Shown: piece by piece, positions 1 to 55,527 of the stretch
Layout of the letters: each line of letters opens with the position of its first letter
Position numbering within the stretch: position 1 is the first letter of the stretch
Source: Lutibacter oricola
GTDB taxonomy: Bacteria > Bacteroidota > Bacteroidia > Flavobacteriales > Flavobacteriaceae
Assembly (NCBI RefSeq): GCF_900106565.1
Contig: NZ_FNNJ01000001.1
Location: forward strand, 496,001-560,000
Length of the DNA: 64,000 bases
Direction of reading: 5' to 3'
The notes under the pieces: model-generated
Database searches by the model: none
Seen by the model: the letters and a program-made list of their open reading frames with translations, nothing else
Told to the model about the DNA's origin: nothing
Made by a program: the position numbers and the translations under genes

Positions 1-381
1 AGTTTAAAGAAAAATGAATACGGAAAATTATTAGCTGGTTTAAAAGAAAGTAAAGGACAATTGATAAAATTAAATAGTGTTTCAAAAATAAAAGCAGAAG
101 CTCTTTCAATTTTAAAAGATAAAGATTTATTGCCTAAGGTAAATGTTGAAGAATCTAACTCGCTGGAAACAAAAGGTTGTATTTGGAGAGTTGTTACTAA
201 TAAATCAGGAAATCAGGTGCTTTCAGTTGTTAACGTTGGAAAATCAAATGCTAGTTTAAAAATAACATTGAACGGAAGTTCAACTATTAATTGTAAAGAT
301 TTAATTAAAGGAATAAAAGTAAGTTCAACGCCAACATTAAAACCAAACGAGGTGTTTTTTGTTGAAGTAACTCAATTATAA
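1..381 (+). CDS. 3' end of a gene cut by the window edge; probable C-terminal beta-domain of a secreted glycoside hydrolase
   Basis: The reading frame is open from base 1, so this is the last 126 codons of a longer gene; the TTG at 61 is not a credible start. The visible part reads as a short beta-sandwich with alternating hydrophobic strands (WRVVTN, LSVVNVG, LKITLNG) and ends FFVEVTQL. Such small all-beta tails close many multidomain glycosidases, including GH42-like and agarase-like enzymes, but the catalytic part is missing and no family can be named. Only 5 bases separate it from the sulfatase at 387, so it is probably the upstream member of the same transcript. The function is inferred from fold impression and context. 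Confidence 0.55.
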   Translation, partial: SLKKNEYGKLLAGLKESKGQLIKLNSVSKIKAEALSILKDKDLLPKVNVEESNSLETKGCIWRVVTNKSGNQVLSVVNVGKSNASLKITLNGSSTINCKDLIKGIKVSSTPTLKPNEVFFVEVTQL

Positions 382-386
382 TACAT

Positions 387-1931
387 ATGAAAATGAATCG
401 ATTTAATTTTATAAGTTTAGTATTAGTACTAATTGTTTTTACAGCTTGTAAAACTTCAGAAGAAGCAAAAAAAGAAACTGTAAAAAAACCAAACATTGTT
501 TTTGTTTTGGTAGATGATTTGGGTTGGGCCGATGTTGGTTTTAATGGGTCAAAATATTTTGAAACACCAAATTTAGATGCTTTGGCTGAAAAAAGTTTAG
601 TGTTAAATAATGCATATATGTACCCAACGTGTTCACCAACTAGAACCGCAATTTTTACAGGGCAACAATCTTTTAGAACTGGAGTTTATACAGTGCCAGT
701 TTTAGAAAAAGGTACAGACCAAGAAAACATATTTTCGCGTTGGACAGTTGGTAAAGAACATCCAATTTACTCAGAACCTATGGCAGAAGTTGGGTATAAA
801 TCTATTCATTTAGGTAAATGGCATATTGTAGGTCCAAATCCAAAAGAAGAATTGAAAATGCAATTCCCAATCAAACAAAAATTAACGCAACCAGATCCTG
901 GAGTTTATGAGTGGGCTGAGGTTCATAAAACACCAGAAGTACAGCAATATTATCCAGAAGGAAGAGGATTTTTAAAAAATGTAGGAGGAACTTATAGAGG
1001 AGATCCTGCACTTGAAGTAAATGGTTATAAAAGTGTTGGTGGAGGTTATTGGGCGCCATTTAGCAATCCGTTTATAGAGCAAAAACCAACTGATAATTGG
1101 TTAACTGATAGATTAACAGATGATGCTATTGAGTTTATTGGAGAGCATAAAGAAGATCCGTTTTTAATAAATTTAAATTTTTATGCAGTTCATCGTCCAA
1201 TTAGAGCTAGAAGCGAAGAATTACTTCAAAAATACTTGTCAAAACCTGTTGATTCAGTTACAGGTCAAGGAGGCATAGGAGTAAATCAAAAAATTAAAGA
1301 AAAAATGGCAGGTTATGCTTCAATGGTAGAATCTGTAGATGAAAATATTGGGCGTGTAGTTGATTATTTAGATAAAAATGGACTTCGTGAAAATACTATA
1401 ATTATTGTGACTTCAGATAATGGTCAGAATGGTAACACAAGCTCCAACTATTTATTAAGAGGTTCAAAAGGTTATATTTATGAAGGAGGAATAAAAGTGC
1501 CAATGTTAATTAACTGGCCAAATAAAATTACTCCAAGACGAAGCGATGCAGCTGTAACTTGTTTAGATATTTTTCCAACATTAATGGATGTTGCTGGTAT
1601 TAATGATTGTAAAGGAACTTTAGATGGTAATTCGGTAACTGAAATTTTTGAAAAAGATAGTAAATTGTTTCAAGAGCGACCATTGTTTTGGCAAATTAAT
1701 AGCCAATGGAAACACGGTACATGTTCAGTAATTAGAAAAGGAAACCACAAACTAATTCAATGGCTTTCAACAGGTAAAATAGAACTTTATAATTTAAAAA
1801 CAGACGCTACTGAAAGTAATAATATTGCCGATGTAGAAACTGAAATCACAAAAAATATGTTAGCAGAATTGGTTGAGTGGAGAAAAGAGAATAAGGTTCC
1901 ATTACCACCAAATTCAGTATTAGATTTTTAA
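387..1931 (+). CDS. Lipoprotein sulfatase (S1 family), CSPTR active site
   Basis: Hydrolyses sulfate esters on an oligosaccharide. The N-terminus is a lipoprotein signal ending LIVFTA-C21, so the enzyme is probably anchored at a membrane. The metal-binding Asp pair lies in VDDLGWAD (about 43-44). The cysteine to be converted to formylglycine is Cys82 in CSPTRTAIFTG, followed by the GKWH block and the late SDNG metal motif. At 514 aa it is full length for the family. GWADVGFNG resembles the arylsulfatase A/B-like branch, but the sulfate position attacked cannot be read from sequence. It sits 5 bases after the truncated gene and 5 bases before the propeller hydrolase, which suggests co-translation with both. 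Confidence 0.93.
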   Translation: MKMNRFNFISLVLVLIVFTACKTSEEAKKETVKKPNIVFVLVDDLGWADVGFNGSKYFETPNLDALAEKSLVLNNAYMYPTCSPTRTAIFTGQQSFRTGVYTVPVLEKGTDQENIFSRWTVGKEHPIYSEPMAEVGYKSIHLGKWHIVGPNPKEELKMQFPIKQKLTQPDPGVYEWAEVHKTPEVQQYYPEGRGFLKNVGGTYRGDPALEVNGYKSVGGGYWAPFSNPFIEQKPTDNWLTDRLTDDAIEFIGEHKEDPFLINLNFYAVHRPIRARSEELLQKYLSKPVDSVTGQGGIGVNQKIKEKMAGYASMVESVDENIGRVVDYLDKNGLRENTIIIVTSDNGQNGNTSSNYLLRGSKGYIYEGGIKVPMLINWPNKITPRRSDAAVTCLDIFPTLMDVAGINDCKGTLDGNSVTEIFEKDSKLFQERPLFWQINSQWKHGTCSVIRKGNHKLIQWLSTGKIELYNLKTDATESNNIADVETEITKNMLAELVEWRKENKVPLPPNSVLDF

Positions 1932-1936
1932 GATGT

Positions 1937-3259
1937 ATGAAATTTAAGGCGCTTTTTGTAATTCTAATTACAACTTCTTGTTTGTGCCAAGCACAAACAG
2001 GAAAAAATGATTCTTTAGTGAATGGAGCCTCTTTTATCGATCGTTTTTTACCTATTGAAAGTAAAAATGTGGTTTCAAATGTTTGGGGCGCAAAAAATGT
2101 GATACCTAGAGATATTAACAATGGAATTGAAGATGCTGAATACTCTTATTGGGGAGGTAATATTGTACATGGTGACGATGGAAAAGAACACTTATTTGTA
2201 GCTCGATGGAGAGAGGATATTTCCAGACCAAATGGAAAAAGCGGTCATAATTTATGGTGGGCTTCAGAAGTTGTACATGCGGTAAGTAACAATCCACTAG
2301 GGCGTTATAAAGTAATTGACGTAATTGGTGCAGGTCATAATCCTGAGATTTACAGATTAAATGACGGAAGTTATATAATCGGTGTTATGGGTAATAAGGC
2401 TTATAAAGCACCTAATTTAAATGGGCCTTGGACACAGATTGAAACTATATTTAATTTCTTGGATAAAAAGCAAAACCCTACAAATAGAACGTATGTAGTT
2501 AGAAAAGATGGTAGTGTTTTAATGATGAATAAAGAGGGGTATTTGTTTGTGAGCGAAAATGCTAATGAACATTTTGTAGAACTAGATGCAGTTCCAGCAT
2601 TTAAGAGAAAAAAAGAAACGCATGAAGAAGACCCTGTTATTTGGAAAGATGAAGTACAATACAATTTAATTATGAATGATGCTTTTGGTAGAAAGGCATA
2701 TCATTTAACTTCAAAAGATGGTATTCATAATTGGACTTTTGAAGAAGGAATTGCTTACAATCCAGACATTTTAAAACATGTAGGTGGTTCTCTTGGAAAT
2801 TGGTGGAAATTAGAACGCCCTAAAATTAGAAAAGATAAATACGGAAGGGCAACACATATAAATTTTGCAGCTATTGATACTTTAAAAAATAACGATTTAG
2901 CTAATGATAATCATAGTTCTAAAAACATAGTACTTCCATTAAAAATTCAAAAAAGAGTATCAATTTTAAATAAAGAAAAAATTGATGATTCAACAGAAAA
3001 AATTGTACTGAAAATTATTTCTGAAAAAGGATTCAATGCAATTACAGATCTCAATTTAAACTCTTTAAAACTAGGGTCTTCTTTTGAAGTAAATAGAGGA
3101 AGAGGCTCTAATGTAATATTTTCAAGAATAATGGGGGAAGATTTGATAGTGGTTTTTGATGGGAAAAAAATAGGAATAACTGAGAAGGATTATAAATTAA
3201 AGTTATTAGGTAAAACAAAACAAGGTGAGGTTATTTTCGGTTATGCTAGATTACCATAA
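1937..3259 (+). CDS. Secreted beta-propeller glycoside hydrolase candidate (GH43/GH117-like)
   Basis: A 440-residue exported protein with signal peptide ending LCQAQ. Repeated blade-like segments suggest a five-bladed beta-propeller of the GH43/GH117 kind: GHNPEIYRLNDGSY, APNLNGPWT, YVVRKDGSVLMM, HEEDPVIWKDEVQY, LTSKDGIHNWTF and LERPKIRKDKYGRATH. Acidic residues in HEEDP (about 231-233) and Glu in LERPK are catalytic candidates by analogy only. In marine galactan loci such propellers can remove terminal 3,6-anhydrogalactose, which would fit here, but I cannot place this protein in a named family. A short C-terminal beta segment (after about residue 340) may be a separate domain. It lies between a sulfatase and a GH2 enzyme. 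Confidence 0.55.
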   Translation: MKFKALFVILITTSCLCQAQTGKNDSLVNGASFIDRFLPIESKNVVSNVWGAKNVIPRDINNGIEDAEYSYWGGNIVHGDDGKEHLFVARWREDISRPNGKSGHNLWWASEVVHAVSNNPLGRYKVIDVIGAGHNPEIYRLNDGSYIIGVMGNKAYKAPNLNGPWTQIETIFNFLDKKQNPTNRTYVVRKDGSVLMMNKEGYLFVSENANEHFVELDAVPAFKRKKETHEEDPVIWKDEVQYNLIMNDAFGRKAYHLTSKDGIHNWTFEEGIAYNPDILKHVGGSLGNWWKLERPKIRKDKYGRATHINFAAIDTLKNNDLANDNHSSKNIVLPLKIQKRVSILNKEKIDDSTEKIVLKIISEKGFNAITDLNLNSLKLGSSFEVNRGRGSNVIFSRIMGEDLIVVFDGKKIGITEKDYKLKLLGKTKQGEVIFGYARLP

Positions 3260-3313
3260 TTGAGATTTCTAGTTAAAGAAATACACCAAGACTTTATAAA
3301 AAAAATAAATTAG

Positions 3314-5941
3314 ATGAAACGAATTAAAAAATACTTTTGGGTATTAATTTTTATTTGCGGTACGTCAATTGCCCAACAAAAATTTTCAACAGCAGGTTTT
3401 TACGAAGTAGAAAACAGTCCACGAAAGGTTTTTAATTTTAATATTGGATGGCGTTTTTACAAAGGTGATGTTAAGGGTGCAGAAACAGTAGATTTTAACG
3501 ATTCGAATTGGGAAGCTGCAAATTTACCTCACGGATTAGAAATTTTGCCTGAAAATGCAAGTGGTGGTAGAAATTATCAAGGTAAGGCTTGGTATAGAAA
3601 AGAATTTACCGTTAATGAAAATTCAACTTCTTCAAAAACATTTTTATATTTTGAAGCTGTAATGGGCGCTGCTAAAGTGTGGGTAAATGGAGAATTAGTA
3701 GCCGAACATTATGGAGGTTATTTACCTTTTGCTGCCGATGTTTCAACAATATTAAAAAAAGGTAAGAATATTGTAGCAGTAATGGCAGATAATAGTGATA
3801 GTAAAATGTATCCTCCAGGTAAACATCAGGGCGGATTAGATTTTAGTTATTTAGGCGGAATTTACAGAGATACTTATTTAATTCAAACAAAGCCAATATA
3901 TATTACACTTACTGAGCTTAGTAAAACCGTTGCTGGCGGTGGTGTTTTTGTTGGAACTAAAGAAATAAATGGCAACAACGTTAAAATAGGAATTAGAACA
4001 GAGATTGCTAATAATTCGAATAAAACACAAACTATAATAGTTAAATCTGTTTTAGAAAATTTAGAATTTAAAGAAATTAAATCAACGCAACAATCGATTA
4101 GATTGCAAGCAGGAAAATCAAAACAATTATCAAAAGATTTAAAGGTAGAAAATGTTCATTTATGGCATCCAGATGATCCATATTTGCATTTTATTAGAAC
4201 AGATGTTATTGTAAACGGAAAAGTTGTAGATCAAACAAGAACTCGTTTTGGAATTCGATTGTTTGAAATGAAAGGAGCAGAAGGATTGTTTGTAAACAAT
4301 AAATATATAGGCAAAAAATTAGTTGGTGTAAATCGCCATCAAGATTATGCGTATGTTGGTAACGCTGTTCCAAATTCAAGTCATTATAGAGATGTAAAAC
4401 TATTGCGCGAAGGCGGTAGTCATATTATTAGAGTTGGTCATTACCCTCAAGACGATGCTTTTTATGATGCTTGTGATGAATTAGGAATGTTAACAACAAC
4501 AGCAAATCCGGGTTGGCACTTTTTTAATTTTAAAGAAAAAATATTTGAAGAACGCTTATATGAAGATTCACATAATTTAGTTCGAAAAGATAGAAACAGG
4601 CCTTCAATTTTATTGTGGGAAACCGCTATTAACGAAACACCTTCGCAGCCAGATCACGCAATGAATAATATGCATAAGGCTGCACATTCTGAATATCCTT
4701 TCCCGGGAATGTACACCGTAACCGATTGTGAAGAAGCTGAAAAAGGGGGATTGGATGTTTATTATCATGGACATTCAAAAACTGTAAATTCGTTTAACAG
4801 AGAATTTGGAGATGGTAATGAAGTAGACGATTGGTATTCGCAAAATTCAATAGTACGTGTAAAACGTGAATGGGGAGAAAAAGCAATGCTCGATCAATCT
4901 TTAAGACAAGCACATCAATTATCGCAAAGATTTAAAACAGATAAAGTTCGTATTGGTGGAGCTATGTGGGCAGGAATTGATCACCAAAGAGGTTACCATC
5001 CAGATCCTTTTTTAGGAGGACATTTAAATGTGTTGAGATTGCCTCGTTATACATACTATTTGTATAAAAGTCAAAATTCGGCAGATTATAAATTGAATGG
5101 TATTGAAACTGGTGCTATGATTTATAATACCAATGAACTAACACAATTATCAGGCAGCGATGTTATTATTTATAGTAATTGCGATGAAATAAAACTGACT
5201 TGGATGGGGAAAGATTATGGAATTCAGAAACCATCTACAGATCCAAAGTATGATGGTTTACCGCATCCTCCATTTGTGTTTAAAAATGTTTTTTACTTAG
5301 ATAAAATTCGCCATAGAAAAGGTGATCAAAAAGGAGCAATTAGATATATGATTTCTGAAGGTTTTATACAAGGAAAATCAGTTGTAAAAGATGTAAAAAC
5401 CTATGCTATGAGATCTGAAAAACTTCAGTTAAGTATAGCAGATGAAGGGTTGAAGTTAATGGCAGATGGATCTGATTTTGTTCCTGTTAGAGCTACTATT
5501 GTTGATTTAAATGGAGCAAAAAAAGTACTTGCTGAAGAGTATGTTTATTTTGAAGTTGAAGGTCCTGCAGAAGTTATTGGAGGAATTCAAAATATGGGTA
5601 ATCCTGCTAAATCTTCTTTTGGTATTGCAACAGCTTTAATAAGAGCTACTAATAAACCTGGAGTTATTAAGGTTCGCGCTTATGTAAAAGGACTAAAATC
5701 AGATGAAATTATTTTAGAATCAAAACCTTTAAAACAGAAAATGCTTTTTGATGAAAATTATGTTGCAAATTCTAAAAAAGTAGATAAAGATAAAGTAACA
5801 ATTGAGCAAGTTAAAGAAGAGAAATTACCTACAAATATTAAAAAACTTCAAGAAGAAGTTAAAATGTTAAAGCTGCAGTTGGTTGGTAAAGATCAACAAT
5901 TAATGGAGTTAAGAAGTAACCCAGAAGGAAATAAAAATTAA
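3314..5941 (+). CDS. GH2 beta-galactosidase-type glycosidase with C-terminal coiled coil
   Basis: Exported (signal ending SIAQQ) 875-residue GH2 enzyme for removing terminal beta-linked sugar, plausibly galactose. In order it has the jelly-roll sugar-binding domain (about 35-200, with AWYRKEF), an immunoglobulin-like domain (about 200-315) and the TIM barrel (about 320-615). GVNRHQD near 338 marks the barrel. The acid/base is Asn440-Glu441 in AINET and the probable nucleophile is Glu497 in NREFGD. The last 30 residues form a strong heptad pattern (IKKLQEEVKMLKLQL), unusual for GH2 and probably an oligomerisation helix. It is a paralogue of the GH2 at 40802, sharing the same N-terminal block and tail type. 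Only 4 bases precede the next gene. Confidence 0.92.
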   Translation: MKRIKKYFWVLIFICGTSIAQQKFSTAGFYEVENSPRKVFNFNIGWRFYKGDVKGAETVDFNDSNWEAANLPHGLEILPENASGGRNYQGKAWYRKEFTVNENSTSSKTFLYFEAVMGAAKVWVNGELVAEHYGGYLPFAADVSTILKKGKNIVAVMADNSDSKMYPPGKHQGGLDFSYLGGIYRDTYLIQTKPIYITLTELSKTVAGGGVFVGTKEINGNNVKIGIRTEIANNSNKTQTIIVKSVLENLEFKEIKSTQQSIRLQAGKSKQLSKDLKVENVHLWHPDDPYLHFIRTDVIVNGKVVDQTRTRFGIRLFEMKGAEGLFVNNKYIGKKLVGVNRHQDYAYVGNAVPNSSHYRDVKLLREGGSHIIRVGHYPQDDAFYDACDELGMLTTTANPGWHFFNFKEKIFEERLYEDSHNLVRKDRNRPSILLWETAINETPSQPDHAMNNMHKAAHSEYPFPGMYTVTDCEEAEKGGLDVYYHGHSKTVNSFNREFGDGNEVDDWYSQNSIVRVKREWGEKAMLDQSLRQAHQLSQRFKTDKVRIGGAMWAGIDHQRGYHPDPFLGGHLNVLRLPRYTYYLYKSQNSADYKLNGIETGAMIYNTNELTQLSGSDVIIYSNCDEIKLTWMGKDYGIQKPSTDPKYDGLPHPPFVFKNVFYLDKIRHRKGDQKGAIRYMISEGFIQGKSVVKDVKTYAMRSEKLQLSIADEGLKLMADGSDFVPVRATIVDLNGAKKVLAEEYVYFEVEGPAEVIGGIQNMGNPAKSSFGIATALIRATNKPGVIKVRAYVKGLKSDEIILESKPLKQKMLFDENYVANSKKVDKDKVTIEQVKEEKLPTNIKKLQEEVKMLKLQLVGKDQQLMELRSNPEGNKN

Positions 5942-5945
5942 ACAA

Positions 5946-8696
5946 ATGAGAAAAATAGCATGTTTTTTTGTACTGCTTTTTAGTTTACAAAGTATACTAG
6001 CATCAGGTGGAATTCAAAGTATTGAAACAGATTATACTATTATGAAAGTTAGAGTCATGAAGTATAATAACAACACAAAAATTATTGGAACTAGTTATGA
6101 AGGTACTGTAGTTTGTTACGATTATTCAGGAAAATTACAATGGAAAAATGAACTTTCGGGTTTTATGAACAATGATATTTATTGTGCAGATATTGATAAT
6201 GATGGTAAAGATGAAGTATTGGCTCCAAATGCCGATGGAACTTTATATTGTTTAGATGATAATGGTGAATTGTTATGGAAATTCAAGAAAAATTCTGCTC
6301 CAATATTAACTGCAACAATGGTAAGCAAAGGTAAAACCAACTATGTTGTTTGTGGTGGTTACGATAAAAACATTCATTATTTATCTACAAAGGGAGCGTT
6401 GTTAAAATCTATTCCGTCTGCTTCTTATAGTATTGAAAAAAAACATAAAAATCATGCAATAAACTATCTACGAAAAATTGAACAAAAAGGAAAAGATGTT
6501 TTAGTAGTTTTAAGTGCGTTTAATACAAATTACGATCAAGGTGTTCTTTATTATTTCAATCCGTTTGAAGACAAGCCTTACCAATCTTCAAAAATGAAAG
6601 GTAAAGGAGGAGGAGGTTCTTGTCCAGGAACTATGGCTATTAATGATATTATACCCAGAAATACAGAAATATTATTGGGTGGAAACGGATTGAATGCTTT
6701 ACAGGTATCCGTAGGTTCTGCTGAGCAATGTACCGCTGAAAAAATTCAATTCAAATTTAAAAATGCAAGAAAAGATATTGGAAAAGTAGGATACAGGTTG
6801 GCATCTGCTGAAGCGATTCCTTATAAAAGTAGTTTTAAATATTATGTATTATTTGGAAATAGAATGCATTTAGTTTCTCCTGAAAAAAATGGAGACCCAA
6901 CAGAAATTGTTGAAAGTAATTATGCTTTTAATGATATGTGTAAAGATGGAGAAAATGGAAAATTAATTTTAGGAAGTGTACAAAGTGGAGGAAGTTGTAT
7001 TCATATAATTGATTATACAAATAACTCTTGGAAAAAGGAGTTTCAAAAATTGGAGCCTTCTGGAAAAATGGCTAAGATTTTAGCAAACACTAAAGACTTC
7101 AGTAAAAAATTAAAAAAGTTTAAAATTCCTAAATGGGAAAACCATAAAGTTGCCGTAAAAGTATTGTCGTCTGGAATAAGTAGTCAAGAGGCTGCAGCTT
7201 TGCCTGGTAAAAACGTAAAAAACTTAATTAATATAGATGGTGTAAAAAAGTTATACCCACATGTTGAAAATTGGGATCGTTCAGGTATGGAAAATAAAGT
7301 TTCAAGAGAAACGCGCGATCATCGTAAAAAATATGATTTAACCAGTAGTGAGGCTTTGGCTAAATTTAAAAAAGGATTAGAAGTTGCACCTTCAGGAATT
7401 CAATATTGGCAAGGGCATGGTAGAGATGTTTATTTTTATTCTTTACCTACAGCTAAAAAAGTAATTGATGCAGCAGGCGATAAAATTGTAATTCCAATTT
7501 TGGCAGAATTAGGTGCTCATGATAAAGATGCAGAGTGGATGGCTGAAGATTTTATTTATCCATTGGCAACACATATGAAAGGAACCAATAGTTTTATTTC
7601 AGTAAGAAATAAATTTACGTTTTGGCAATCTGTGGTATATACACCAATGTGGAAACGACTTGTTTCTGGTGAATTTGCAGATTCTTTTGTTTCATCTATG
7701 GAAGAATCTAATAGCAAGGTAATGGATATGAGTATTTCCGGTAGAATAGGGCTTTGGGCTGCAGGTTCTATGAATCAATGGGGAACTCGTTTTACAAGAG
7801 ATAATCCGTGTTACGATAGGTTACGCCAATTATCATATCAAAAAGTACCAAATCATGCATTAAGAATGCTTGTGCATCAAATTGCGAGTGGTGCTTCTGT
7901 TGTGCACCACACAACAGTTAATATAGAGTATCAAAAAGTTTTATGGGATATGATTTCTACAGGTATTTTATATGTGCCAACAAGAAACGAAATTGTAAGT
8001 ATTAATCCTGTTCATTTAAGTATGTTAGATCCACACCCTTTATTTATTAAAGGTGAACAAGTAAAAGATGTAACGCTTTATGATGAAAAGTTTGAAAAAG
8101 AAAACCCTATGATTGTTGGACGTACACAAGGTGTTAATGCTGGTGGACCAGTTACAGAATGGGATTTTTCTAAATATGCAGCAGGAGTTAAAGAGCGTAG
8201 GTTAGAATTTTTACCAACTTATCCAAACGGATTGGTGTTAACTACGCCTCCAGTTGATAAAAATTCATTGAGAGGAACATTAGAAAGTCATTTAAATCCA
8301 ATTTATAAAAACATTACCAAAGAAATTTTTATGGATGGTAAAAATTACTATTCAGATAAAAATAAAACTACAACTTACAGCGCAGATACTTACTATACAA
8401 CCGTTAAAAAAGCCATTGAAGAAGGTGCTGAAAAATTACCTTTAACTGTTGAAGGTCGTGTTGCTTGGGTTACTGCCCAAACGGCTCCAAAACACTTACG
8501 ATTAACTTTGGTTGACGGTGGTTATGTAAACCCAAATGATAGAATTGCAACAATTAATTTTCATACAGCTAAAGTGAAAAAAATCACTAATTTATTAACA
8601 AATGAAGAGGTGAAATTCAATAAGGGTAATGCAAAAATTGCTGTGCCTTGTGGTTTGTTTGTGTTTTTAGATATTGAATTGAAAGAAGCGCTTTAA
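5946..8696 (+). CDS. GH150-like lambda-carrageenase candidate, copy 1
   Basis: A 916-residue exported protein (signal ending SILAS). Residues about 25-360 form a quinoprotein/FG-GAP-like beta-propeller with repeated blades: GTVVCYDYSGKLQWK, the calcium-type loop DIDNDGKDEV, and GTLYCLDDNGELLWK. The remainder is a large module with WQGHGRDVYFYSLP, FWQSVVYTPMWKRL and SGRIGLWAAGSM. A beta-propeller joined to an otherwise unmatched C-terminal module is the published layout of the Pseudoalteromonas carrageenovora lambda-carrageenase, founder of GH150 (about 940 aa), so this would be an endo-beta-1,4-galactanase on lambda-carrageenan. The family call rests on architecture, length and the GH110/GH82/sulfatase neighbourhood, not on an alignment. 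It is homologous to the protein at 12264. Confidence 0.6.
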   Translation: MRKIACFFVLLFSLQSILASGGIQSIETDYTIMKVRVMKYNNNTKIIGTSYEGTVVCYDYSGKLQWKNELSGFMNNDIYCADIDNDGKDEVLAPNADGTLYCLDDNGELLWKFKKNSAPILTATMVSKGKTNYVVCGGYDKNIHYLSTKGALLKSIPSASYSIEKKHKNHAINYLRKIEQKGKDVLVVLSAFNTNYDQGVLYYFNPFEDKPYQSSKMKGKGGGGSCPGTMAINDIIPRNTEILLGGNGLNALQVSVGSAEQCTAEKIQFKFKNARKDIGKVGYRLASAEAIPYKSSFKYYVLFGNRMHLVSPEKNGDPTEIVESNYAFNDMCKDGENGKLILGSVQSGGSCIHIIDYTNNSWKKEFQKLEPSGKMAKILANTKDFSKKLKKFKIPKWENHKVAVKVLSSGISSQEAAALPGKNVKNLINIDGVKKLYPHVENWDRSGMENKVSRETRDHRKKYDLTSSEALAKFKKGLEVAPSGIQYWQGHGRDVYFYSLPTAKKVIDAAGDKIVIPILAELGAHDKDAEWMAEDFIYPLATHMKGTNSFISVRNKFTFWQSVVYTPMWKRLVSGEFADSFVSSMEESNSKVMDMSISGRIGLWAAGSMNQWGTRFTRDNPCYDRLRQLSYQKVPNHALRMLVHQIASGASVVHHTTVNIEYQKVLWDMISTGILYVPTRNEIVSINPVHLSMLDPHPLFIKGEQVKDVTLYDEKFEKENPMIVGRTQGVNAGGPVTEWDFSKYAAGVKERRLEFLPTYPNGLVLTTPPVDKNSLRGTLESHLNPIYKNITKEIFMDGKNYYSDKNKTTTYSADTYYTTVKKAIEEGAEKLPLTVEGRVAWVTAQTAPKHLRLTLVDGGYVNPNDRIATINFHTAKVKKITNLLTNEEVKFNKGNAKIAVPCGLFVFLDIELKEAL

Positions 8697-8814
8697 GTAG
8701 CTTGCTTTACTCATAGAGACATAGTTTTAATTAAAAAAGACAATCGATAAACCATAAAAGACACAATAACGTTTAAAGTTTGCTTCCTTCGTAAAACATT
8801 ATTAATTCAAAAAG

Positions 8815-10284: not shown

Positions 10285-10311
10285 AAAAGATTAATAATTG
10301 AGTTTAGTCTA

Positions 10312-10349
10312 GAAGAGCATCATCGTATAGGTGATGTTCTTCTTTTATT
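10312..10349 (+). terminator. Rho-independent terminator after the first unit
   Basis: A 12-bp stem pairs 10312-10323 with 10331-10342, with two G-U pairs and a 7-base loop, followed by TTTTATTT. It lies 28 bases after the sulfatase stop. Confidence 0.8.
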
Positions 10350-10503
10350 TAAAAGTTATCAATTAAGAATTAATTTTACAGGTATTAGAATAAAATGTGG
10401 TAGTAAAATCTAAAAAGCTGTTATAAATTGCAGATTAAATACTCCATTAAACTAATAGTGACATGTTTTTTACGTAGAACAACAAAACGAGTTTTAGGAG
10501 TGG

Positions 10504-10511
10504 TAATTTTG
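10504..10511 (+). promoter_or_regulatory. Possible Bacteroidetes -7 promoter box
   Basis: TAATTTTG matches the Bacteroidetes TAnnTTTG element 22 bases before the sulfatase start at 10534 and downstream of a terminator, so a promoter is expected in this gap. No convincing -33 TTTG lies at the normal spacing, so this is a weak call. Confidence 0.35.
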
Positions 10512-10533
10512 TTAGTATAATAAAAAATTCAAG

Positions 10534-12051: not shown

Positions 12052-12073
12052 TATTTAGCAAATAATATTTAAT

Positions 12074-40787: not shown

Positions 40788-40801
40788 TAAAACCCAGTCA
40801 A

Positions 40802-48501: not shown

Positions 48502-50094
48502 ATGAAAAATTTAAAGTTTTTAATCGCCATAGGTTTAATCTCATTGGTTTCTTGTGCTCAAAAAGAGAAAGAAGAAAAACAAGATGAGCGTCCAAATATC
48601 ATTTTTTTATTATCTGATGATCAAACTAGCATAGCTACTGGTTGCTACGGAAACGATCAAGTAGTTACTCCAAATATGGATAATTTAGCTGCAGACGGAA
48701 TTCTATTTGCAAACCATTACAACACTACTTCAATTTGCATGGCAAGTAGAGCTAGTATTATGACAGGTATGTATGAGTATAAAACAGGTTGTAATTTTAT
48801 GCACGGATCGTTACGTAAAGAGAAATTTCAAAAATCGTATCCAGTAATTTTAAGGCAAGCAGGTTATTTTACAGGTTTTGCGGGTAAATTTGGGTTTCCA
48901 GTTTCTGATGAAGAGGGTTGGGATGATAAAAATATGAAAGTAATTCCTGCAGATGAATTTGATATGTGGGGTGGTGGTCCAGGACAAACTCAATATGCAA
49001 CAGCAAAAAATCCTTCAATAGCAAAGTACGCTAAAGAATATCCGCATAGTACAAGAGCATATGGTGCTTGGGCAAATGATTTTATTTCTGAAGCAAAAAA
49101 GTCTGGTAAACCATTTTGTATGTCTATTAGCTTTAAAGCACCTCATTTACCATTTACACCAGATAAGTATTTCGATTATGTGTATGAAAATAAGAAGTAC
49201 AAAAAACCAGCTAATTATGGTGCAGAAAATGCTCAGCATTTATCACCACAAGCAAAATCTGGGCGTCAATACAATAGTTATAATTTTTGGCGAGATTCCG
49301 AAGAAAACTATCAAGAAGCAATTTCAAAATACAATCAGTTAATTCACGGAGTTGATTATGTGTTAGGAATGATTCGTAAATCGTTAAAAGAACAAGGTGT
49401 TGATAAAAATACTATTATAATTTTTACCAGCGACAACGGTTATAGCTGTGGAGCACATAATTTTGGAGGTAAAGTATTGCCTTATGAAGAAGCTTCGAAA
49501 TCACCTTTAATTATTTACGACCCAAGAGTGCCTAAAAATAAAAGAGGTCAAAAACGTGAAATTGTTACTGCAAATATAGATATGGCACCAACAATTTTAA
49601 CCTATGCAGGTGTTAATATTCCTGAAAATATGGATGGTGAAAACTTGATTCCATTAATTAATAAATCAAAAGGAATCAACCGTGAAACAGTTGCTTTAAC
49701 AAATATGTGGGGTAATGATGAAATTCAAGCAATGTCGGTAGTTTCAAAAGATTGGAAATATATTTATTGGCAATACGCAAACGAAAAAATGCAACCTGTT
49801 GAAGAACTTTTTAATATTGGGAATGATCGTTTAGAAATGAATAATGTCGCTAATAATTCAACTTATAATAAGCAACTGAATAGAATGAGAAAGCTATATG
49901 ATAAGCAATTACAACATATAGAAAGTAGTGCTTTGAATTATAACGATTATAAGAAATACGGAATTCTATTTGATAGAAGTGCCAAAGCTTCAGATAAAAA
50001 AGAATACCTAACAGGAGATTACCAAGAAGTATTAAGGTTGCAAAAAATTATGCAAGCCGAAAAGAGAAAAGCAAGTAAGAAAAAAAAGAAATAA
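48502..50094 (+). CDS. Lipoprotein sulfatase (S1), CMASR active site
   Basis: A 530-residue lipoprotein (SLVS-C18). LSDDQTSIATGCYG, formylglycine Cys79 in CMASRASIMTG, FAGKFGFP in place of GKWH, and SDNGYSCGAHNF mirror the sulfatase at 19299. GGGPGQTQY and YPHSTRAYGAW match that paralogue almost residue for residue, although this copy is lipid-anchored and 30 residues longer. The tail is lysine-rich (KRKASKKKKK). It opens the last unit of the locus, behind a possible promoter at 48455. Lipid versus soluble versions may place the same activity in two compartments. Confidence 0.93.
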   Translation: MKNLKFLIAIGLISLVSCAQKEKEEKQDERPNIIFLLSDDQTSIATGCYGNDQVVTPNMDNLAADGILFANHYNTTSICMASRASIMTGMYEYKTGCNFMHGSLRKEKFQKSYPVILRQAGYFTGFAGKFGFPVSDEEGWDDKNMKVIPADEFDMWGGGPGQTQYATAKNPSIAKYAKEYPHSTRAYGAWANDFISEAKKSGKPFCMSISFKAPHLPFTPDKYFDYVYENKKYKKPANYGAENAQHLSPQAKSGRQYNSYNFWRDSEENYQEAISKYNQLIHGVDYVLGMIRKSLKEQGVDKNTIIIFTSDNGYSCGAHNFGGKVLPYEEASKSPLIIYDPRVPKNKRGQKREIVTANIDMAPTILTYAGVNIPENMDGENLIPLINKSKGINRETVALTNMWGNDEIQAMSVVSKDWKYIYWQYANEKMQPVEELFNIGNDRLEMNNVANNSTYNKQLNRMRKLYDKQLQHIESSALNYNDYKKYGILFDRSAKASDKKEYLTGDYQEVLRLQKIMQAEKRKASKKKKK

Positions 50095-50103: not shown

Positions 50104-51915
50104 ATGAAAAATAAATTTATTTATACAGTTTTCCTTTTGGTTTCAATAGTTTGCTTTAAGTTGAAAGCACAACAGCGACCAAAACAGCCGAATGTAATTT
50201 TTATTCTTACTGATGATCAAGGTTACGGAGATATAGCTGCACACGGCAATAAAGTAATAAAAACACCAAATTTAGACAACCTTCATAATCAATCAGTTCG
50301 ATTAACAAATTACCATACAGGTCCAACTTGCGCTCCAAGTCGTTCTGGTTTAATGAGTGGTGCTTATGGAAACAGGGCAGGTGTTTGGCATACTATAGGA
50401 GGCTGTAGTATTTTACGTGAAAAGTTTGTTGCAATGCCACAGGTTTTTAAAGAAAACGGGTATGCAACTGGTATGTTTGGAAAATGGCATTTAGGAGATG
50501 CATATCCTTATTTACCGGAAGACAGAGGTTTTGATGAAACAGTATATCATGGAGCTGGAGGAATTGGGCAAACGCCAGATTATTGGTTAAACGATTATTT
50601 TGATGATACTTATTTTAGAAATGGAACACCCGAAAAATTTAAAGGGTACTGTACGGATGTGTTTTTTGAAGAAGCAATTAAGTTTATTGAAAAGAAAAAG
50701 GATCAGCCATTTTTTGCATATATATCTACAAATGCACCGCACGGACCATTGAATCTTCCTAAAGATTATTACGATTTATATAAAAATGAAAAATCTATTA
50801 CCGATGCTCAAAAAGCATTTTATGGAATGATTACCAATATTGATGATAATATTGGAATTTTAGAAAAAAAATTAAAGCAATTAGGTATTCAAGATGATAC
50901 TATTTTAATTTTTATGACTGATAATGGTACAGCAACTGGGCATACTGTTATAAAAGGTGAAACTTATGGTTTTAATGCCGGTATGCGAGGTCATAAAGCG
51001 TCTCAATACGATGGTGGACATCGAGTGCCATTTTTTATTCGTTGGAATAATGGAGGTGTAAATGGAGGTGTTGATATTCGAAATATTACTATGAATTATG
51101 ATGTTTTGCCCACTTTAATAGATTTATGCTCGTTGTCTAAAATTGATGGGCCTGCATTTGATGGAGTAAGCTTAAAACCATTGCTAACTAAAGAAGTTAA
51201 TTCTTGGCCACATAGATATACATTTACCGATAGCAATAAAAAACAACACCCAAAAAAATGGTATAAATCTGCTGTTATGGATGATGATTGGCGTTTAATT
51301 GATGGAAAAGAATTGTATAATATTAAGAATGATGTAGGTCAAAAAATAAATGTTGCAAAAAAGTTTCCTAAGAAGTTTGAAGAAATGAAAACAGCTTATG
51401 AAAAATGGTGGAAGTATGTTTCGCAAGATTTTGGACGTTATGAAGCCTATAAAATTGGAGTTTCTCATATAAAAGAAACTACGCTTACTAATCACGATTT
51501 ACATTCTGAATCTCCACTTGCTTGGAATCAGTCATATATACGTGATCCATATTACAAGAAAAAACCAGCAATACCACAAGGTTATTGGATGATTGATGTT
51601 CAACAACGAGGAGAGTATGAAATTGAATTAAGAAGATGGCCAAAAGAAGCCAACTTAGCTATGAATGCAACAGTTCCTCAGCAAGGAATTAGAACAAAAT
51701 GGACAGATATTCGTCCTGTGGGAATTCAGCTTAATTTTAAAAAAGCAACTCTAAAAATAGAAGGAATATTACAAGAGCAAGAGGTTGATATGTCTAAAAA
51801 ATCTGTGAAGTTTAAAGCTTTTCTATCTAAAGGAAGGCAGCAAATGCAAGCATATTTTACCAATGATAAAAATGAGGATTTAGCTTCTTTTTACCTATAT
51901 ATCACAAAAAAGTAG
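50104..51915 (+). CDS. Secreted sulfatase (S1) with C-terminal beta-domain, CAPSR active site
   Basis: A 603-residue enzyme with a type I signal ending KLKAQ. TDDQGYGDIAAHG, formylglycine Cys76 in CAPSRSGLMSG, MFGKWHLGD, HGAGGIGQTPDYW and TDNGTATGH follow the sulfatase at 17809. After the catalytic fold comes an extra domain (about 495-603) starting GYWMIDVQQRGEYEIELRRW and made of alternating strands, possibly a carbohydrate-binding or dimerisation sandwich. It is 9 bases downstream of the previous sulfatase. Substrate position is unknown. Confidence 0.92.
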   Translation: MKNKFIYTVFLLVSIVCFKLKAQQRPKQPNVIFILTDDQGYGDIAAHGNKVIKTPNLDNLHNQSVRLTNYHTGPTCAPSRSGLMSGAYGNRAGVWHTIGGCSILREKFVAMPQVFKENGYATGMFGKWHLGDAYPYLPEDRGFDETVYHGAGGIGQTPDYWLNDYFDDTYFRNGTPEKFKGYCTDVFFEEAIKFIEKKKDQPFFAYISTNAPHGPLNLPKDYYDLYKNEKSITDAQKAFYGMITNIDDNIGILEKKLKQLGIQDDTILIFMTDNGTATGHTVIKGETYGFNAGMRGHKASQYDGGHRVPFFIRWNNGGVNGGVDIRNITMNYDVLPTLIDLCSLSKIDGPAFDGVSLKPLLTKEVNSWPHRYTFTDSNKKQHPKKWYKSAVMDDDWRLIDGKELYNIKNDVGQKINVAKKFPKKFEEMKTAYEKWWKYVSQDFGRYEAYKIGVSHIKETTLTNHDLHSESPLAWNQSYIRDPYYKKKPAIPQGYWMIDVQQRGEYEIELRRWPKEANLAMNATVPQQGIRTKWTDIRPVGIQLNFKKATLKIEGILQEQEVDMSKKSVKFKAFLSKGRQQMQAYFTNDKNEDLASFYLYITKK

Positions 51916-52045: not shown

Positions 52046-53629
52046 ATGAAAAATTCAAAAATAAAAGATATGCAATTTAGTTTTCTTAGGAAACTTGTTT
52101 TAATGGTAGTAGTTGTTAGTATTGTAGGTGTTACAAATACTAAAGCTCAAGAAAAATTTAAGAAAAATTGGGAGTCATTGAGTAAAGTTAATGAGCAACC
52201 AGAATGGTTTAGAGATGCAAAATTTGGAATTTATGCCCATTGGGGCCCAGTCTCAAATGCATTTGTTGGTGCAGATCCTGATACTTGGTATGCAGGATGG
52301 CACGGAATGAAAATGTATGTTGATGGTAAAAAAGTTCCTACTAAAAATGGTAAGCCAACAACTAATTATATTCATCATAAAAAGAAGTATGGAGATCCTA
52401 AAAGACATGGATATACTGAAATAATTGAGGAGTTTAAACCAACTGGTTTTGATGCAAAAGTTTGGGCAGAATTATTTGAAGCATCAGGAGCTAAGTTTGC
52501 TGGACCAGTAGCAATGCACCATGATAATTTTGCAATGTGGGATGCAAAATCTACGCGTTGGAATTCTATGAATTACGGAGGAATTGACCCTTCAGCAGCT
52601 TTGAAAAAAGAAATTGAAGCTAGAGGAATGAAATTTATGGGATCTTTTCACCATGCATTTACTTGGCAATATTTTGCACCAGCTCATAAATATGGAGGTG
52701 TAAACCCAAAAGATTATGATTTATATACAAATCCACATAGTTTAGATTCTGAAACGCCAGATAAAGATTTTTATGATCAATGGTGGGCTAAATTGAAAGA
52801 GTTTATCGATGTATATGAGCCAGATGTAATTTGGTTTGACTGGTGGTTAGAAAATATGACAGATGAATGTAGACAAGAATTTTTAGCATATTATTATAAT
52901 AAAGGAATTGAGTGGAATAAAGATGTAGTGGTATGTTATAAAGAAAGTACTTTTCCAGAAGAAACTGCAATTAAAGATTACGAAAGAGGGCGTCCAAATC
53001 AACCAAAAGAACAAGTTTGGTTAACGGATACTTCACCAGGTCAATGGTTTTACCGTCCGGGAGCTAAGTTTAAAACACCTAACGAATTAATTGATATTTT
53101 AATTGATATTGTTGCTAAAAATGGATCAATGTTATTAAATGTGCCACCAAACCCAGATGGTTCAATTCCAGAAGAAATGGCTTCTTTATTAAAAGAAATG
53201 GGAGCTTGGTTAAAAATAAATGGAGATGCTATTTTTAAAACAAGACCTTGGACAGTTTTTGGTGAAGGACCAACTCGTTTACCAGAAGGAGGGCATAAAA
53301 TAGAAAAACTTAAAATTGAGTATAAAAACTCTGATATACGTTACACAAAAAAATCTGATAAAGAGTTTTATGCCATTGTAATGGATGCTCCAAAAGGCGA
53401 AACAATTTTAAAAACATTAAGTACTGATATTGGTGTATTAAATTCAAAAATTTTAAATATTGAATTATTAGGTAGCAATGAGAAAATTTCTTGGGAAAGA
53501 GATAGTAGAGGATTGGTTATAAAAGCACCAAAATCTGTACCTTCGCAATATGCACATGCGTATAAAATTACATTAGAAGGATATACTGAAAATAATATTG
53601 GTGGGGATGTTGATACGCATGTAGACTAA
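52046..53629 (+). CDS. Secreted GH29 alpha-L-fucosidase/alpha-L-galactosidase-type enzyme, second copy
   Basis: A 527-residue enzyme. A start at Met9 (52070, MQFSFLRKL) gives a tidier signal peptide ending NTKAQ. GH29 marks are FRDAKFGIYAHWGPVS, AMHHDNFAMW, TRWNSMN, and VIWFDWWLEN with probable nucleophile Asp265, then MLLNVPPNPDGSIP and a C-terminal beta-domain. Against the copy at 37692 it has an insertion near 85-110 (MKMYVDGKKVPTKNGK) and no lipobox. A 130-base gap precedes it, with no gene or clear signal. It lies between two sulfatases, implying a sulfated L-sugar substrate; that is inference. Confidence 0.9.
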   Translation: MKNSKIKDMQFSFLRKLVLMVVVVSIVGVTNTKAQEKFKKNWESLSKVNEQPEWFRDAKFGIYAHWGPVSNAFVGADPDTWYAGWHGMKMYVDGKKVPTKNGKPTTNYIHHKKKYGDPKRHGYTEIIEEFKPTGFDAKVWAELFEASGAKFAGPVAMHHDNFAMWDAKSTRWNSMNYGGIDPSAALKKEIEARGMKFMGSFHHAFTWQYFAPAHKYGGVNPKDYDLYTNPHSLDSETPDKDFYDQWWAKLKEFIDVYEPDVIWFDWWLENMTDECRQEFLAYYYNKGIEWNKDVVVCYKESTFPEETAIKDYERGRPNQPKEQVWLTDTSPGQWFYRPGAKFKTPNELIDILIDIVAKNGSMLLNVPPNPDGSIPEEMASLLKEMGAWLKINGDAIFKTRPWTVFGEGPTRLPEGGHKIEKLKIEYKNSDIRYTKKSDKEFYAIVMDAPKGETILKTLSTDIGVLNSKILNIELLGSNEKISWERDSRGLVIKAPKSVPSQYAHAYKITLEGYTENNIGGDVDTHVD

Positions 53630-53661
53630 ATAGAGTTTATACACAAAATCAATAAAACAAT

Positions 53662-55527
53662 ATGAAATTTAAATTATCACTAGTAATTTGTTTAATTGCA
53701 TTGCAAGTTTTTACAGCTTGTAGTCAAAAAACGAAACCTGTTGAGGTTGAACGTCCTAATATTGTTTGGATTGTATCAGAAGACAATTCAAAACATTATT
53801 TAAAAATGTTTGATGAACATGGTGCTACCGCTCCAAATATTGAAAGTTTGGCCGCAGATGGATTAACGTATACACATGCATTTTCCAATGCTGCTGTATG
53901 TAGTGCTGCAAGGTCAACTTTGATTTCTGCATCTTATGGTCCTCGTTTAGCAACTCATTATCATAGAAAAATGGAACAAGTTCCATTGCCTGAAGGTGTT
54001 GAAATGTTTCCTGCTTATTTAAAAAGAGCTGGTTATCATACAACAAACAATGCGAAAGAAGATTACAATTTATTCAAAGCAGATAATGTTTGGGATATGT
54101 CTTCAAAAAAAGCTACTTGGAGAGATCGCAAAGAAGGTCAACCTTTTTATCACGTATTTAATATTGGAACAACTCACGAAAGTAGATTGCATTTTACTAG
54201 AGAGGATATGAAAAAAGGAACAAAAACGGATGTAAATTCTGTTTTTGTACAACCAAATCATCCACAAACAGAGTTGTTTAAATTTACAAATGCATATTAC
54301 CACGACAAAATTCAGCAAATGGATACTGAAGTTGGTGAGGTAATTGCAAAGTTAAAAGAAGACGGCTTGTACGATAGTACATTTATATTTTATTATGGAG
54401 ATCACGGTGGTGTGTTACCTGGAAGTAAAGGTTATATTAATGAAATGGGAGTTCATGTGCCATTAGTAGTTCATATTCCTTCAAAGTATAAGCATTTAGT
54501 TGATGAAACTCCAGGAACGAAAGTTGATGGTTTTGTAAGTTTTATTGATTTTGGTGCAACTGTTTTAAATTTAGCAGGCGTTGAGTTACCTAAAGGAATA
54601 GATGGGAAACCATTTTTAGGAAAAGGAGTTTCTGGAAAAGAAGTTGCAAAGCGCGATGAGACATTTAGTTATGCCGATCGTTTTGATGAAAAGTACGATA
54701 TGGTTCGTGCGGTAAGAAAAGGTAAATTCAAATATACTAGAAATTTTCAACCATTTAATTTTAATGGTTTAATGAATAACTACCGTTACAAGCAATTAGC
54801 TTACCAAGAGTGGTTAGAATTGTATGAAGCAGGTAAATTGAATGAAATTCAATCACAGTTTTTTGAGCCAAAACATGCTGAAGAATTGTATGATGTTGAA
54901 GCTGATCCATTTGAAACAAATAATTTAGCAGATAAACCAGAGTATATTGAAACCGTTAAAGAATTAAGAGCTAATTTAAATAATAGAATGAAGTCTATGC
55001 CAGATTTATCTGTCTATCCAGAATTTTATTTAAAGAAAGTAGCATTTTCTAATCCGGTTGAATTTGGTCAGCAACACAAAAAAGATATTGAGGCATATCT
55101 TGAAGTAGCTAATTTAAATATTTTAAAGTTTGAAGATGCTAAAGTTAAAATCGATGAAAACTTAAAATCAGATGATGCTTGGAAACGTTACTGGGCATTA
55201 AATACTTGTAGTAGTTTTGGTAAAGAAGCTAATGAGTTTGTTAGTGTTGCTAAAGAAATTGCAAAATCAGATTCAGTGTTAATTAATAAAGTTAAAGCAG
55301 CAGAGTTTTTAGGTTTAGTAGGTAAACAAAATCCTGTTAATGTTATGACAAAAGCATTGTATGATACAAAAGATGGTGCTGAGGCTGTATTAATGTTAAA
55401 CTCTATTGTATTAATGAAGGATGGAGCTCACAAGTACAAATTCAACATTAAACAAGATAAAATTAATAAAATAACACTTGAAGAACCATTAGTATTAAGA
55501 AGGTTGGAGTATATTAATAAGAAATAA
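53662..55527 (+). CDS. Lipoprotein sulfatase (S1) with HEAT-like tail, CSAAR active site
   Basis: A 621-residue lipoprotein (VFTA-C20). The early metal site is SEDNSKH (Glu40-Asp41) and the formylglycine residue is Cys80 in CSAARSTLISAS, where the usual Thr/Ser-Gly that ends the motif is missing. GDHGGVLPGSKGY is the late metal site. It groups with the sulfatases at 10534 and 39228 but carries about 145 extra residues (about 475-621), predicted all-helical and HEAT-like (KRYWALNTCSSFG, KVKAAEFLGLVGK, AEAVLMLNSIVLM). It is the last gene of the locus; a 16-bp terminator starts 20 bases after the stop. Confidence 0.92.
   Translation: MKFKLSLVICLIALQVFTACSQKTKPVEVERPNIVWIVSEDNSKHYLKMFDEHGATAPNIESLAADGLTYTHAFSNAAVCSAARSTLISASYGPRLATHYHRKMEQVPLPEGVEMFPAYLKRAGYHTTNNAKEDYNLFKADNVWDMSSKKATWRDRKEGQPFYHVFNIGTTHESRLHFTREDMKKGTKTDVNSVFVQPNHPQTELFKFTNAYYHDKIQQMDTEVGEVIAKLKEDGLYDSTFIFYYGDHGGVLPGSKGYINEMGVHVPLVVHIPSKYKHLVDETPGTKVDGFVSFIDFGATVLNLAGVELPKGIDGKPFLGKGVSGKEVAKRDETFSYADRFDEKYDMVRAVRKGKFKYTRNFQPFNFNGLMNNYRYKQLAYQEWLELYEAGKLNEIQSQFFEPKHAEELYDVEADPFETNNLADKPEYIETVKELRANLNNRMKSMPDLSVYPEFYLKKVAFSNPVEFGQQHKKDIEAYLEVANLNILKFEDAKVKIDENLKSDDAWKRYWALNTCSSFGKEANEFVSVAKEIAKSDSVLINKVKAAEFLGLVGKQNPVNVMTKALYDTKDGAEAVLMLNSIVLMKDGAHKYKFNIKQDKINKITLEEPLVLRRLEYINKK

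Follow-up and report, generated by a model that had tools for sequence, protein, structure and literature searches.

Predicted enzyme arm of an expanded lambda-family carrageenan utilization locus in Lutibacter oricola

The marine flavobacterium Lutibacter oricola (assembly GCF_900106565.1) very probably carries, on contig NZ_FNNJ01000001.1, the enzymatic part of a locus for the use of lambda-family carrageenans, the activities, localisation and induction of its products and the substrates of its extra enzymes being deduced from sequence. The analysis started from a window of 64,000 bases (contig 496001-560000); coordinates are those of this window unless the contig is stated, and negative values lie to its left. 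The system is best read as one of a known kind, greatly expanded, with five lineages of GH150 enzymes, 12 sulfatases outside the S1_8 and S1_15 subfamilies, a GH29 enzyme nearest to a porphyran alpha-L-galactosidase, and a gene trio encoding a CstA-family transporter, a flavin adenine dinucleotide (FAD)-dependent oxidoreductase and a flavin mononucleotide (FMN)-like protein.

Extent of the locus

The genome comprises 4.12 Mb in 57 contigs and is 99.6% complete. Genes were called mechanically as open reading frames (ORFs), and all 31 of those with at least 150 amino acids between 387 and 55527 were found on the + strand, in agreement with the one-directional gene run described in a first-pass annotation made from the letters of the window. 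The left edge of the window, from which the span given there runs, is not the boundary of the locus, which begins 27.5 kb further left, at contig 468519 (window -27481), with a Bacteroidota-type hybrid two-component regulator detected by Pfam scan. The whole locus has 45 genes, all on the + strand, in 83,009 bases, with a median gap of 19 bases and 96% coding sequence, and it totals 17 S1 sulfatases, five GH150 and two GH110 proteins; the part left of the window holds the regulator, three of the GH150 genes, the second GH110, a GH167-like enzyme and the 17th sulfatase. Pfam scans covered the window genes up to 55527 except the sulfatases at 19299 and 20806. Of the 14 genes upstream, 13 were scanned in this way, and the last (contig 485492) was identified by a genome-wide PF00884 search.

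Five GH150 lineages

The five GH150 proteins of the locus are predicted to be endo-carrageenases of the lambda family. Two are encoded in the window, at 5946..8696 (lineage A4; Pfam CGLA_M 459 bits, propeller 374, C-terminal 111; 40% identical to GH150A of Pseudoalteromonas carrageenovora and in a 5-member clade of its own) and at 12264..14906 (lineage B; CGLA_M 206, propeller 75, C-terminal 70 bits; 52% identical to GH150B of that species), and three upstream, at contig 472748, 479695 and 482501. Propeller, middle and C-terminal CGLA domains are present in all five, each above its Pfam cut-off. For the two window proteins the first-pass annotation had proposed membership of GH150 from a propeller-plus-module layout, and had named the failure of GH150 profiles with both as grounds for refutation; all three domain profiles matched each of them. 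In an alignment of eight sequences (both Pseudoalteromonas GH150 types, one from Flammeovirga and the five locus proteins), around 80 columns are invariant. Searches with blastp against the P. carrageenovora plasmid matched four locus genes to GH150A with 40-51% identity, and the idea that the divergent protein at 12264 represents a new family was dropped in view of its 52% identity to GH150B, whose counterpart in Pseudoalteromonas distincta U2A acts on lambda-carrageenan (PMC12549532).

In a FastTree phylogeny of 85 GH150 proteins each of the five locus proteins fell in a clade of its own together with proteins of other genomes, so the five copies are not recent duplicates, an origin that was considered and dropped on these grounds; 20 of the 82 inner branches of this tree are weak, and a long-branch warning applies between lineages B and A4. 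The nearest GH150 record, with 93% identity, belongs to an uncultured Lutibacter sp., isolate 4-1427, which has four of the five lineages and lacks A4. Among 397 Flavobacteriaceae genomes, PF25290 was detected in 14, with up to four candidates scored per genome, so that copy numbers in that search are lower bounds; among 38 genomes of the same genus it was detected in 5, and two of these (G446 and G447) have only two GH150 matches. A scan of the genome collection yielded 51 GH150 loci, including some from Planctomycetota, Kiritimatiellota and Pseudoalteromonas; these extend 10 kb to either side, and the counts out of 51 given below are best matches within those limits.

Other genomes showed further genes of this type. 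L. citreus has a sixth one (G425:C2:46127-47095), which scores like lineage B and lies apart from the main locus. Pontiella sulfatireligans (Kiritimatiellota) has, at positions 6-15700, four GH150-type genes within 16 kb, one of them cut by the locus edge, together with a GH82 homologue of 1031 amino acids. An open frame of 1087 amino acids at G246:C6:178048-178779 matches CGLA_M only weakly, at 38 and 27 bits, and may encode a distant GH150 relative.

Counterparts of the lambda-carrageenan cascade

The cascade solved in P. distincta U2A consists of GH150A/B, S1_8B, GH110A, S1_15B, GH110B, S1_8C, GH2, S1_15A and S1_8A (PMC12549532; here and below, published systems are compared through excerpts of the cited articles). 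Candidates for every one of these activities are present in the locus, as judged by sequence, trees and active-site residues, those for GH2 and the second GH110 being weak, and the proposal that the locus degrades lambda-carrageenan is upheld to this extent. The U2A proteins were reached via the related P. carrageenovora plasmid and via Protein Data Bank (PDB) names. Their names were put on plasmid genes by the position of the catalytic cysteine where this fits (C92, C84, C94) and, for GH110, by residues. The cysteines of S1_8A and S1_8C (80 and 93, versus 82 and 68 in the paper) do not fit, and these two names come from protein length versus PDB chains and from the tree. Besides the GH150 values given above, the plasmid matches were 58% for GH110A, 44% for S1_8B, 47% for S1_8C and 40% for S1_8A.

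All 16 S1 sulfatases counted in the window by the first-pass annotation were recovered, 14 by the protein Pfam scan and those at 19299-20801 and 20806-22320 by the genome-wide PF00884 search, which gave 84 matches; as gene 39228 accounts for two of these in pieces, the genome has 83 S1 sulfatases. The active-site CxxxR-type motif was found by pattern in 15 of the 16, and the last one, at 53662, has CSAAR. Subfamilies were assigned by homology to reference proteins. In a tree of 29 sulfatases, three locus proteins belong to the S1_8 clade (support 100/100). The S1_8B-like protein at 10534..12051 (44% to RS20350; tree 100/98) is predicted to be an exo 2-O-sulfatase on alpha-linked G2,6S, the S1_8A-like protein at 39228..40787 (40% to RS20500) a 2-O-sulfatase on the monosaccharide G2S, and the S1_8C-like protein at 53662..55527 (47% over 615 amino acids to RS20330; tree 100/100) a 2-O-sulfatase on beta-linked G2S. 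Two more, a predicted 6-O-sulfatase at 34166..35731 and a protein on a long branch at 16317..17801, form with P. carrageenovora S1_15A/B a four-row S1_15 clade supported by 100/99, and may correspond to the two S1_15 forms of the cascade. The best PDB matches of the proteins at 10534 and 34166 are the entries named S1_8B (9bbd, E 2e-112) and S1_15A (9bas, E 5e-78).

The two GH110 proteins differ in the pocket for the 6-sulfate. The one at contig 487089 (window -8911), detected by Pfam and 58% identical to GH110A, keeps Arg460 and Thr498 of the GH110A pocket, and the one in the window, at 35860..37677, has Glu, as in GH110B, in the column of R460/E480 and does not keep Asp518; these residues, Arg460/Thr498 of GH110A and Glu480/Asp518 of GH110B, are named in PMC12549532. 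Three GH2 genes were detected by Pfam, GH2a at 3314..5941, GH2b at 31109..34144, which comes closest to the cascade GH2 within the locus (35% over 832 amino acids to RS20355), and GH2c at 40784..43507. No GH16 was detected among the Pfam results for the locus genes, and GH127 profile matches lie outside the locus only, as would be expected with a polymer lacking anhydro-galactose.

Importer and synteny in relatives

A polysaccharide utilization locus (PUL) in the strict sense has a SusC/SusD pair inside it, and here the pair sits on another contig, C15, in a PUL at C15:11094-32370 that encodes the third GH110 of the genome, four sulfatases including an S1_8A-like one, two GH2-like proteins, a GH82 homologue, SusC and SusD. 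Two relatives, Lutibacter sp. 4-1427 and L. citreus, have a locus of the window type joined without a break, on the same strand, to the SusC/SusD PUL, in runs of around 105 kb and at least 118 kb, respectively, which also hold a GH2 nearest to w156665, a protein 49% identical to the cascade GH2. As the partner PUL is joined to the locus in these relatives, L. oricola probably has one system in split form. An assembly gap as the cause of the missing pair was rejected, since other genes flank the partner PUL on either side, 11 kb into C15, and further genes come after the locus on its own contig (C51). In five further Flavobacteriaceae (G323, G383, G168, G084 and G334) the best matches of C15 genes are in the same stretch as GH150. 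The synteny tables consist of best blastp matches, and in them the series GH2b, S1_15-like gene, GH110, GH29a, S1_8A-like gene and GH2c is found in each of the two relatives as part of a single run, with order and strand unchanged; many locus genes also recur around GH150 in other Flavobacteriaceae.

A transporter and redox gene trio

Three adjacent genes were absent from the first-pass gene list. They encode an FAD-dependent oxidoreductase with a twin-arginine-like N-terminus (43742..45670; PF12831, 308 bits; in 7 of the 51 GH150 loci), a possible FMN-binding redox protein with a helical-repeat tail (45678..46811), and a short form of the CstA-family transporter (46829..48253; Pfam 199 bits), which scores 110 bits against the NCBIfam model of the pyruvate/proton symporter CstA, whose cut-off is 1188. 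For all eight distinct homologues of 45678 among the matches listed, the oxidoreductase gene is the neighbour, in two cases with one partner short or cut by the end of the stretch. The protein at 45678 may bind FMN, to judge by a conserved DxDAxSGAT-type motif, of the kind found in covalent-FMN domains, and by one weak profile match (FMN domain 8p2b, E 0.034). The structure model, of helical-repeat type (predicted local distance difference test, pLDDT, 81), does not confirm it: Foldseek returned helical repeats at low template-modelling score and nothing at E <= 0.001, and model confidence is low around the SGAT motif.

A CstA-family match was obtained in 21 of 27 genomes with GH150 loci and the short form in 20, and this form lies within around 32 kb of GH150 in 9 of these 20 genomes and 5 of 11 genera (one further candidate genome, G412, was left out of this count) and elsewhere in the other 11 genomes. 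CstA was found in 4 of the 38 same-genus genomes, three times in a GH150 locus and once in a genome without GH150 (G444, 78% complete), an association with a one-sided Fisher p of 0.0045, not corrected for kinship; against such a link, G446 and G447 have GH150 without CstA. Both L. citreus and Lutibacter sp. 4-1427 have the trio at another place. Redox genes recur in carrageenan loci, as the P. carrageenovora plasmid has multiheme c-type cytochrome genes, RS20495 and RS20150, beside sulfatases in two carrageenan regions, and the FAD/FMN-like pair is found here.

Enzymes beyond the cascade

The protein at 14922..16295, called a GH82 homologue by the first-pass annotation, does match the iota-carrageenase entries 1h80/3lmw (E 6e-55), and in 15 of the 51 loci (13 genomes), including Planctomycetota and Pontiella, its best match is placed no more than 10 kb from GH150. 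In an alignment of 32 rows, the Gln, Glu, His and Arg of the -1/+1 subsites are kept in all, Tyr in 31 and GYG in 30. For GH82, Gln, Glu and His were named as catalytic and Arg and Tyr as substrate-binding (PMC3669377), and Alteromonas fortis Glu245 and Asp247 (one proposed catalytic candidate) are from PMC4919138. Asp247 is not kept, being Gly in the locus protein and Asp in none of the 32 rows; the possibility that its loss makes the homologue inactive was dropped, since P. carrageenovora RS20130, one of these rows and taken as the GH82 of that species (PCAR9_p0028) by gene order, is also without it.

The GH167/GH42-like protein of 766 amino acids is encoded across the left edge of the window (contig 494081-496381, window -1919..381, with the 3' end at 1..381 inside). 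It is 40% identical over 783 amino acids to P. carrageenovora RS20090 and keeps both catalytic Glu; neocarrabiose is released by GH167 (PMC6923384). GH29a, at 37692..39200 and 94-97% identical in the two relatives, found the PDB entries 7snk and 7ljj/7lnp with 425-429 bits (429 and 427 for 7snk and 7ljj), the next molecule scoring 272 bits. Both 7snk, labelled as a fucosidase, and 7ljj are BpGH29, the exo-alpha-L-galactosidase of the porphyran pathway (PMC12316285). This is suggestive of an alpha-L-galactosidase, and not more than that because the other GH29 proteins of the genome may share the same best match, GH29a being the one compared with the PDB out of 14 PF01120 matches. GH29b lies at 52046..53629 and is 39-40% identical to GH29a; another GH29 of 766 amino acids, around 33% identical to GH29a, is encoded directly left of the locus regulator (window -30666, contig 465334-467634).

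In its enzyme list the first-pass annotation was borne out by Pfam for the window GH110, the three GH2, the two GH29 and the esterase, a SASA-family carbohydrate esterase at 25620..26507 (PF03629). Its GH31/36-like gene at 28023..29489 has an alpha-galactosidase-like match, although a weak one, with Melibiase at 30 bits for a cut-off of 27; a six-sequence profile led to solved alpha-galactosidases (E 5e-5) and a GH31 alpha-galactosidase (E 1e-3). The product of 1937..3259, a gene also missing from that list, is possibly a beta-propeller protein similar to glycoside hydrolases, given the matches of a low-confidence model (pLDDT 66) to beta-propellers including sialidases, GH43, GH62 and GH117; no family match was obtained in Pfam or NCBIfam.

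The 12 sulfatases outside the two cascade clades are encoded at 387..1931 (PF00884; with a lipoprotein-type signal by pattern only, and grouping with C15_11094 near the RS20105/RS20155 pair), 8815..10284 (with a homologue in 13 of the 51 GH150 loci), 17809..19287, 19299..20801, 20806..22320, 22328..24040, 24226..25620 (95-98% in the two Lutibacter relatives), 26507..28012, 29653..31107 (sister of C15_30928), 48502..50094 (which pairs in the tree with 19299), 50104..51915 and contig 485492. Upstream of the window, Pfam detected two SASA-family esterases, a ThuA protein and a DUF1080 protein (3-keto-disaccharide hydrolase family) between the GH110 at contig 487089 and the GH167-like gene, the last two prompting the idea of a possible 3-keto-sugar step. 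Three secreted proteins with type IX secretion system (T9SS) tails, possibly carbohydrate-binding, are encoded between the GH150 genes (window -20316 to -16500). One of them, of 445 amino acids, has relatives of 17-37% identity near GH150 in many loci, and another, of 368 amino acids, has a stretch in common with a GH167-like protein of the same genome and with a GH82 homologue of Lutibacter sp. 4-1427.

To the right of the locus (55782-63847), where three of the seven genes were Pfam-scanned, there is a minus-strand Lrp/AsnC regulator gene, together with genes for an aromatic amino acid hydroxylase and an aminotransferase. Further sulfatase-rich clusters follow on the contig at 569514-702000 (window 73514 to around 206000), making with the window around 200 kb of glycan genes; 11 genes were scanned between contig 560 and 702 kb. 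One cluster has GH141-like, GH29 and LacZ-type GH2 genes and its own hybrid two-component system (HTCS) regulator, and a second one has GH127-like and GH167-like genes along with a GH16, to which blastp adds another.

Discussion

Flavobacterial PULs with GH150 have already been noted, and growth on lambda-carrageenan linked to a locus has been described as quite rare and so far commonest in Pseudoalteromonas (PMC6262041 for the former, with strain S85; PMC12549532 for the latter). A description of the Lutibacter locus was not found in the literature searched for Lutibacter with carrageenan and for GH150 with Flavobacteriaceae. With the Lambda-CarPUL of P. distincta U2A and PUL 8 and 9 of P. 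carrageenovora (PMC12549532, PMC6262041) it has in common GH150A/B, GH110, S1_8A/B/C-like and S1_15-like sulfatases and GH2, but it has five GH150 and 17 sulfatases where the described system has two and five. The GH82, GH167-like and GH29 enzymes, the SASA esterases, the T9SS-tailed proteins, the CstA/FAD/FMN-like trio and the Bacteroidota-type regulator come in addition in Lutibacter, and its importer is a SusC/SusD pair on a partner PUL. Flavobacteriaceae bacterium S85, compared by its description (PMC6262041), shares GH150, GH2 and GH110 and has two GH150. The kappa/iota regulon of Zobellia galactanivorans is likewise a marine flavobacterial carrageenan system with several sulfatases, but it uses GH16, GH82, GH127/GH129 and S1_7/17/19 (PMC6923384), of which GH16 (Pfam results) and GH127 (profile) are absent from the Lutibacter locus. 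The porphyran PUL of Bacteroides plebeius (PMC12316285) contains the solved enzyme most similar to GH29a, and no GH16 porphyranase appeared among the Pfam results of the locus.

In the proposed mechanism, the hybrid two-component sensor at window -27481 would turn the operon on, and the five GH150 endo-carrageenases of separate lineages, perhaps together with the GH82 homologue, would cleave the polymer at beta-1,4 bonds. Oligosaccharides could then be taken up via the SusC/SusD pair of the C15 PUL. The S1_8B-type sulfatase would take off the terminal 2-sulfate, and alpha-galactose would be released either by the GH110A-type enzyme, in which the 6-sulfate pocket is kept, or by an S1_15 sulfatase followed by the other GH110; the S1_8C-type sulfatase and GH2 would release beta-galactose, and the S1_8A and S1_15 types would clear monosaccharide sulfates to give galactose. 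The remaining sulfatases, the esterases, the GH167-like, GH29 and other enzymes may handle natural substituents and hybrid stretches.

Several points weigh against reading the locus in this way. Only five of its 17 sulfatases belong to the S1_8 or S1_15 clade, leaving twelve, and the GH29, GH82 and GH167 homologues are foreign to the solved lambda pathway, so that lambda-carrageenan alone does not explain the locus. The cascade GH2 is matched at 35% in the locus and at 49-52% elsewhere on the contig (52% at window 78782), and the second GH110 is just 29% identical to GH110B and without Asp518. No SusD was found in contig 440-730 kb, nor any SusC among the scanned locus genes, where no profile search was aimed at SusC, and several right-hand genes, including GH29b, 19299, 26507, 50104, GH2b and the S1_8C-like 53662, are the best match in none of the 51 GH150 loci. 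The window itself does not hold a complete pathway, being without the regulator, three of the five GH150, one GH110, one sulfatase and SusC/SusD.

The same extra enzymes make it a real possibility, if not the favoured one, that the main substrate is a mixed or D/L-hybrid galactan, that is, a carrageenan with L-galactose or iota-type stretches, with pure lambda-carrageenan as a minor one. D/L-hybrid carrageenans have been described (PMC7511586), GH29a is nearest to an exo-alpha-L-galactosidase, the residues emphasised for GH82 (Gln, Glu, His, Arg and Tyr) are conserved in the GH82 homologue, the GH167-like enzyme keeps both catalytic Glu, and the dozen extra sulfatases point the same way; the hybrid galactan named by the first-pass annotation thus gains some independent support from GH29a, and perhaps from CstA. 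It is opposed by the five GH150 with a lambda-type set of S1_8, S1_15 and GH110, by the lack of GH16 (Pfam results) and GH127 (profile) in the locus, and by the tentative specificity of GH29, with one of 14 genomic PF01120 proteins compared with the PDB. Pyruvated or D/L-hybrid carrageenan may be the natural substrate. In a bolder form, which we regard as rather unlikely as a whole, the locus would have native lambda-family carrageenan of pyruvated (pi-type) and D/L-hybrid form as its target, CstA importing the pyruvate of 4,6-ketals, GH29a removing L-galactose, the FAD and FMN-like proteins making a redox step, and each GH150 lineage cutting differently substituted stretches. Pyruvated galactose makes up 6-13% of the units in lambda-carrageenans of some Gigartinaceae (PMC7511586). 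No locus gene is identifiable as a pyruvate-ketal hydrolase, the pyruvylated-galactose-releasing enzyme in print is a GH1 (PMC6090015), a family not seen among the Pfam results for the locus genes, and no redox step of this kind was found in the excerpts of carrageenan literature consulted.

That two or more unrelated loci lie side by side, the carrageenan system being the left half up to GH150B, seems improbable. GH29b, 17809, 19299, 20806, 48502, 50104 and the S1_8C-like gene are never the best match in the compared stretches of the two close relatives, in both of which the trio is placed elsewhere, but the right half holds the S1_8A-, S1_8C- and S1_15-like genes and a GH110, the genes from GH2b to GH2c keep order and strand in one run in both relatives, and the 45 genes are packed with the short median gap given above. 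Fucoidan or another fucose-rich sulfated polymer was placed last among the alternatives and is very hard to sustain as the substrate. It would fit the many sulfatases, the two GH29 in the locus, the one just left of the regulator and the 14 PF01120 matches in the genome; however, the counterparts of GH150, GH110 and S1_8 act on lambda-carrageenan (PMC12549532), the two best PDB molecules of GH29a are an exo-alpha-L-galactosidase (PMC12316285), and a separate cluster of fucose-polymer type, with GH141-like, GH29, sulfatases and its own HTCS, lies at contig 569-612 kb.

Few natural polymers are as highly sulfated as lambda-carrageenan. Read as a lambda-family carrageenan system, the locus would be a much larger flavobacterial version of the lambda-carrageenan locus, in which 12 sulfatases and several other enzymes gain a bounded set of candidate substrates and one transporter gene, that of CstA, is tied to GH150 loci in five genera. 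It would also make testable the question of what natural lambda-family galactans carry beyond commercial lambda-carrageenan.

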